Source: Liolophura sinensis (taxonomy: Eukaryota > Mollusca > Polyplacophora > Chitonida > Chitonidae). From it: a stretch of 64,000 nt of DNA. Below are positions 18,479-38,008 of the stretch, one piece after another. A model generated the notes under the pieces. That model was given only the letters and a program-made list of their open reading frames with translations. It ran no database searches and was not told the origin of the DNA. The position numbers and the translations under genes are program-made. The stretch spans positions 15,634,017-15,698,016 of the forward strand of contig NC_088307.1 in the NCBI RefSeq assembly GCF_032854445.1, given 5' to 3'. The stretch's first letter is position 1. Each line of letters starts with the position of its first letter.

Positions 18479-18676
18479 TCACTTGACACTCCCAAGCTGG
18501 ACCAAAACCGTTGTTCCAATGACCAAGGCTTGATATGCGGTGTTTACCAATGAACGATAGGCAATGTACGCGATAAATGGGCAGACCAAGAACAAGCCGG
18601 TGCCAAGGAGAGTTTGCAGCCAATGGCGACGGGTGATACCGCGAGACAGCGACGTCCCGCCGTCTCTCACCGAGTA
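18479..18676 (-). CDS. Exon 12: two C-terminal membrane segments
   Basis: Acceptor TTCGTTTTCCAG preceded by a pyrimidine-rich tract; phase 0. It encodes [20 protein letters not shown], then helices [17 protein letters not shown] and [14 protein letters not shown], the arrangement seen after RING-CH domains in MARCH proteins. The stop at 18481-18479 overlaps GTGAGA, so the exon may instead be spliced onward. Confidence 0.8.
   Translation of the reverse strand, partial: YSVRDGGTSLSRGITRRHWLQTLLGTGLFLVCPFIAYIAYRSLVNTAYQALVIGTTVLVQLGSVK

Positions 18677-38008: not shown

Follow-up and report, generated by a model that had tools for sequence, protein, structure and literature searches.

Analysis of the window, a 64,000-nucleotide stretch of DNA from the mollusc Liolophura sinensis, revealed 13 exons on the minus strand that very probably form a single fused gene. 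The product predicted from this animal gene appears, on balance, to be a MARCH-like membrane E3 ubiquitin ligase with nine spans, which carries an EGF-like knob and a seven-span body. The predicted order in the protein is an N-terminal EGF-like knob, a seven-span body resembling the THH1/TOM1/TOM3-GPR137 proteins, a cytosolic RING-CH domain, a MARCH-like pair of spans, and a basic tail. This is an arrangement of known parts in a new order.

Gene structure

The sequence-only reading of this DNA had provided a range and a description without exon coordinates, and the exons were located within that range. The twelve exons claimed on one strand were found on the minus strand from position 38008 down to 18483. 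GT and AG were present at every internal border with agreeing phases, as had been stated, and the three split codons were recovered at the borders of exons 7/8 and 8/9 (phase 2) and of exons 9/10 (phase 1). A thirteenth exon, absent from that model, was added.

Exon 1, 37871..38008, minus strand: start codon and five of the six EGF cysteines (residues 1-46); donor CGG/gtgagt
Exon 2, 35735..35836, minus strand: final EGF cysteine and span 1 (residues 47-80)
Exon 3, 34177..34314, minus strand: span 2 (residues 81-126), TOM1/GPR137-like
Exon 4, 31290..31385, minus strand: span 3 (residues 127-158)
Exon 5, 30618..30761, minus strand: span 4 (residues 159-206)
Exon 6, 26112..26207, minus strand: span 5 (residues 207-238)
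Exon 7, 24964..25112, minus strand: span 6; ends in phase 2; weak acceptor
Exon 8, 21782..21880, minus strand: span 7; phase 2 at both ends
Exon 9, 21122..21225, minus strand: linker that connects the seven-span part, in phase 2, with the RING part, in phase 1
Exon 10, 19536..19660, minus strand: RING-CH, zinc ligands 1 to 6
Exon 11, 18831..18878, minus strand: RING-CH, final two zinc ligands (CKVC)
Exon 12, 18483..18676, minus strand: spans 8 and 9, with a phase 2 end; its GTGAG donor overlaps the stop of the earlier model
Exon 13, 14766..14901, minus strand: likely basic C-terminal tail of about 45 residues, then stop

The 13-exon model has a coding sequence of 1569 nt, which encodes 522 amino acids without inner stops. 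The start codon in exon 1 has A at -3 and G at +4 and is preceded by an in-frame stop 9 bases upstream. The GC content of the exons is 0.49 versus 0.39 in the introns, with 0.56 at third codon positions. Splice sites were scored with generic matrices drawn from general knowledge and not trained on the host genome; the acceptors of exons 2, 7, 10, and 13 were mediocre (top 12 to 30% of AGs). The codon scores of the single exons were weak, and those of exons 1, 2, and 9 (3 of 13) were negative. Screening of the 12 introns for further internal exons (acceptor and donor of at least 2 bits, a threshold that weaker exons could escape) yielded one frame-preserving open candidate, located in intron 5. 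Its codon score was at most 5 bits, and it was left out of the model.

Several repeats and unrelated coding stretches were observed in the window. A minisatellite with a 40-bp unit (21 copies, 29817-30654) starts in the terminal part of exon 5, and both the end and the splice donor of that exon recur along the array. The minisatellite contains 19 GT(A/G)AGT sites, including the one of exon 5 itself, in steps of 39, 40, or 80 bp; extension of exon 5 by 40-base units led to a stop in all six cases checked. Another minisatellite, with a 45-bp unit and about 21 copies, occupies 22094-23039 in intron 7. Intron 3 harbors an open Tc1-type transposase frame of 263 amino acids on the plus strand (32509-33297; HTH_Tnp_Tc3_2 and DDE_3). 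Outside the gene, the plus strand carries a rhodopsin-type GPCR at 58919-60167 (7tm_1, 77.7 bits), the final part of which continues in another frame that overlaps the first and gives a weak match (18 bits, under the cut-off), and an Erv1/Alr sulfhydryl-oxidase stretch at 5524-6267 (55.9 bits), perhaps the end of a QSOX-like gene. LINE-like pieces on the minus strand at 1395-3970 and 52740-53833 gave RVT_1, RVT_3, and endonuclease-type matches, some of them below the cut-off, and a weak OTU match was obtained at 2956-3424 (19.3 bits; cut-off, 23.3).

Domain composition of the predicted protein

The complete C4HC3 RING-CH domain previously described was present, with the motifs CWIC, CDC, HHEC, and CKVC. 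A Pfam search of the joined protein placed both the RING-CH and the TOM1/GPR137 assignments over their cut-offs. RINGv (PF12906) scored 54.5 bits (cut-off, 21.6; E value, 1.3e-14) and THH1_TOM1-3 (PF06454) scored 33.6 bits (cut-off, 25; E value, 3.5e-8), the latter rising to 34.7 bits when the seven-span part was scored alone. Solved structures with which the RING also aligned include the RINGs of ORF K3, Doa10, and "cellular modulator of immune recognition."

Hydrophobicity analysis (19-residue Kyte-Doolittle mean of at least 1.0) revealed nine peaks, of which seven precede the RING and two follow it (435-453 and 463-481), in agreement with the reported segments. The PF06454 match extends over profile positions 21-184 of 273 and covers spans 1 to 5. 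No Pfam match was obtained with exons 6 to 9 on their own, and the assignment of spans 6 and 7 is therefore based on hydrophobicity and position. The specificity of the THH1_TOM1-3 match was assessed with six controls from the seven-span part, five shuffles within hydrophobicity classes, which leave the order of hydrophobic and other positions unchanged, and one reversed sequence. None of the six gave this match, and two of the five shuffles gave unrelated Pfam matches below the cut-off (E values of 0.043 and 0.015). A search of solved-structure sequences with the seven-span part gave no match up to an E value of 10, and an NCBIfam search gave none up to an E value of 1.

The six-cysteine EGF-like module reported at residues 28-54 was found as C28-x3-C32-x5-C38-x4-C43-x1-C45-x8-C54. 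In contrast to the RING-CH and TOM1/GPR137 parts, it remained below the cut-off in the full-length scan, in which EGF_Teneurin and EGF_2 scored 20.8 and 16.9 bits, respectively, at residues 25-57. With the first 60 residues alone, EGF_Teneurin scored 25.2 bits (cut-off, 24.3) and EGF_2 scored 22.1 bits (cut-off, 22.1).

One fused gene or two adjoining genes

The claim of a single gene that fuses an EGF module, TOM1/GPR137-like spans, and RING-CH was well supported by the sequence, the exon phases, the linker exon, and the Pfam matches. A direct in-frame join of exons 8 and 10 is impossible, as exon 8 ends in phase 2 whereas phase 1 is required by exon 10. Exon 9 is the sole linker in the gap of 2121 bases between them at acceptor and donor scores of at least 1 bit, and it has one match in the genome. 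The chance of finding such a linker was determined in 60 control pieces matched to the gap in size, taken from both strands of the window with exons masked, and in 400 Markov sequences. Linkers were found in 18 of the control pieces at acceptor/donor scores of 1/1 bit, in 5 at 2/2, and in none at either 4/3 or the strength of exon 9. The corresponding numbers for the Markov sequences were 77, 31, 8, and 3.

The same stretch could be read as two adjoining genes, an EGF/TOM1-GPR137-like seven-span gene that ends after exon 8 and a MARCH-like gene that starts at an ATG before exon 10. Read-through of the exon 8 donor does lead to a TGA after completion of the split codon, and an in-frame ATG stands just upstream of exon 10. 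A pair of adjacent genes from ordinary families would also be the simpler arrangement: all 11 human RING-CH proteins are MARCHs (PMC4021871), and GPR137 is described without domains beyond its seven spans in the accessible text of a 2025 survey (PMC12716839). However, exon 9 would then have no role, even though it is open, has strong borders and one genome match, and supplies exactly the phases needed. Moreover, the ATG has T at both -3 and +4 and, by eye, sits in the acceptor region of exon 10 immediately after an in-frame stop. The two-gene reading is therefore considered very improbable, and a single fused gene is strongly favored.

The 3' end of the gene

The sequence-only reading had placed the gene end at a stop codon at 18481-18479. 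This end is probably one exon short; the TGA overlaps the donor CAA/GTGAGA at the end of exon 12, which ranks in the best 2.6% of the GTs of the region. Splicing from exon 12 to position 14901 preserves the frame (phase 2), and the protein then ends with EKY-stop. The acceptor of exon 13 is in the top 20% of AGs, and the exon has one genome match. Terminal candidates that fit the phase numbered 30 (acceptor of at least -1 bit, at least 30 residues, down to position 8000), among which exon 13 ranked second with a codon score of 6.7 bits. The top-scoring candidate (start at 18113, 10.6 bits) was rejected, since it sits in a dispersed repeat. Given the quality of this overlapping donor and the in-phase continuation by an exon with a single genome match, an end of the protein at 18479 is less likely, and exon 13 likely belongs to the gene.

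Two-span MARCH proteins have a basic tail after the last span, and exon 13 would extend the present protein from span 9 into such a tail. The C terminus EKY fits the type III PDZ motif, D/E-X-hydrophobic (PMC4021871), only if tyrosine is counted as hydrophobic and exon 13 is right.

The dispersed repeat at 17919-18113 (minus strand) appears tRNA-like by eye, with similar copies elsewhere in the window, also by eye. It gave 3222 first-look candidates in the genome, 40 of which were scored and listed.

Membrane topology

A position of the EGF module in the lumen or outside the cell and of RING-CH in the cytosol, as proposed earlier, is mostly favored by the predicted features. The number of spans agrees with this proposal, because seven spans between the EGF module and the RING place the two on opposite sides. 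The placing of basic residues agrees for the most part. With loop borders set by hand, the predicted inside loops L1, L3, and L5 have four K/R each, and the predicted outside loops L2, L4, L6, and L8 have 1, 0, 2, and 1, respectively. The RING region has 17 K/R in 117 residues and the tail has 8 in 41 (borders likewise set by hand). The N-terminal stretch, with 3 K/R in 59 residues, speaks against an outside EGF module. No signal peptide was identified in the predicted protein, and an outside position of the EGF module consequently depends on insertion of span 1 with its N terminus out. An upstream exon encoding a signal peptide was considered; exon 1 contains a weak in-phase acceptor (37990, 0.5 bits).

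Copy number and relatives

The gene is single copy as far as searched. When the joined protein was compared with the 609-Mb genome (20 candidates scored), 13 of the 16 places listed lay at this locus, and the other 3 were RING matches elsewhere. The RINGv profile matched at least seven places in the genome, including the present locus. An exon-blind genome search with PF06454 gave no match and also missed the present gene; hence, it is silent on a separate TOM1/GPR137 gene. The C-terminal 283 residues gave short-pattern matches in 1 stretch of viral contigs and 21 stretches of prokaryote genomes, the N-terminal 245 residues in 43 stretches of prokaryote genomes, and the RING in 14 stretches of viral contigs, with no relatives among them. 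The lack of prokaryotic or viral relatives is as expected for an animal gene.

Comparison with known families

The sequence-only reading had named no described family with this order of domains, and a literature search for a combination of EGF, TOM1/GPR137, and RING-CH, judged largely on titles and abstract openings, likewise yielded no description that was recognized. The present protein shares with the two-span type of MARCH proteins a RING-CH domain followed by two membrane spans but differs in that an EGF-like knob and seven additional spans precede the RING. It shares with the THH1/TOM1/TOM3-GPR137 proteins the PF06454 match over spans 1 to 5. In gp78/AMFR, HRD1, and other multi-span RING E3s, too, a cytosolic RING follows many spans in the same chain. 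Proteins of the gp78/AMFR and HRD1 type, however, have a RING-H2 and unrelated spans and are not known to have a lumenal EGF module or spans after the RING. PA-TM-RING proteins have one span. In the accessible text of one review, the multi-span RING E3s are assigned a role in ERAD, and the PA-TM-RING proteins GRAIL and RNF13 join a lumenal protein-binding module to a cytosolic RING in one chain, as here, but by means of a PA domain and RING-H2 instead of EGF and RING-CH (PMC4021871). Compared with GPR137, for which the accessible survey text gives no domain outside the seven spans (PMC12716839), the present protein adds EGF and RING-CH.

Proposed function

The RING-CH domain would recruit a ubiquitin-loaded E2 and modify membrane neighbors or the protein itself. 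By analogy with MARCH proteins, the modified proteins may then undergo lysosomal sorting or degradation. The seven-span body and the EGF knob may set the choice of partner or the compartment. An active E3 that acts on membrane neighbors is likely from the domain content, and partner choice through the seven-span/EGF part is put forward tentatively.

It is conceivable, at slightly below even chances, that the fused gene belongs to a conserved but unstudied bilaterian family which serves housekeeping endolysosomal turnover and has no receptor function. This reading is compatible with the nine-span E3 explanation. Drosophila CG2991, a RING-CH protein, may belong to the same fused family. However, the accessible parts of the papers naming CG2991 give no domains for it (PMC9404646, PMC8041851, PMC1175973, PMC4603746). 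The lysosomal location given for GPR137 in the survey text argues for a housekeeping role (PMC12716839). The domain order and the predicted topology would also suit a ligand-controlled receptor-ligase, in which binding at the EGF knob or the seven-span body alters the activity of RING-CH in the same chain. The sequence-only reading had inferred a receptor that couples an extracellular contact to ubiquitination. Ligand control is unlikely, in view of the fact that the same survey text gives the ligand of GPR137 as unknown (PMC12716839). That an extracellular contact of the EGF module directly switches the fused cytosolic RING-CH of a seven-span receptor is likewise doubtful. The nine-span MARCH-like E3 remains the explanation that we prefer.

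If the receptor-ligase were true, a single chain would both sense and remove surface proteins, with no need for G proteins or adaptors. With the nine-span E3, the RING-CH ligases would gain a member that carries its own GPR137/TOM1-like body. The gene points to a connection between the ubiquitin-driven turnover of membrane proteins and a seven-span family that is associated with lysosomes and of unclear mechanism, and it raises the question of whether GPR137 itself may act with a RING-CH partner.
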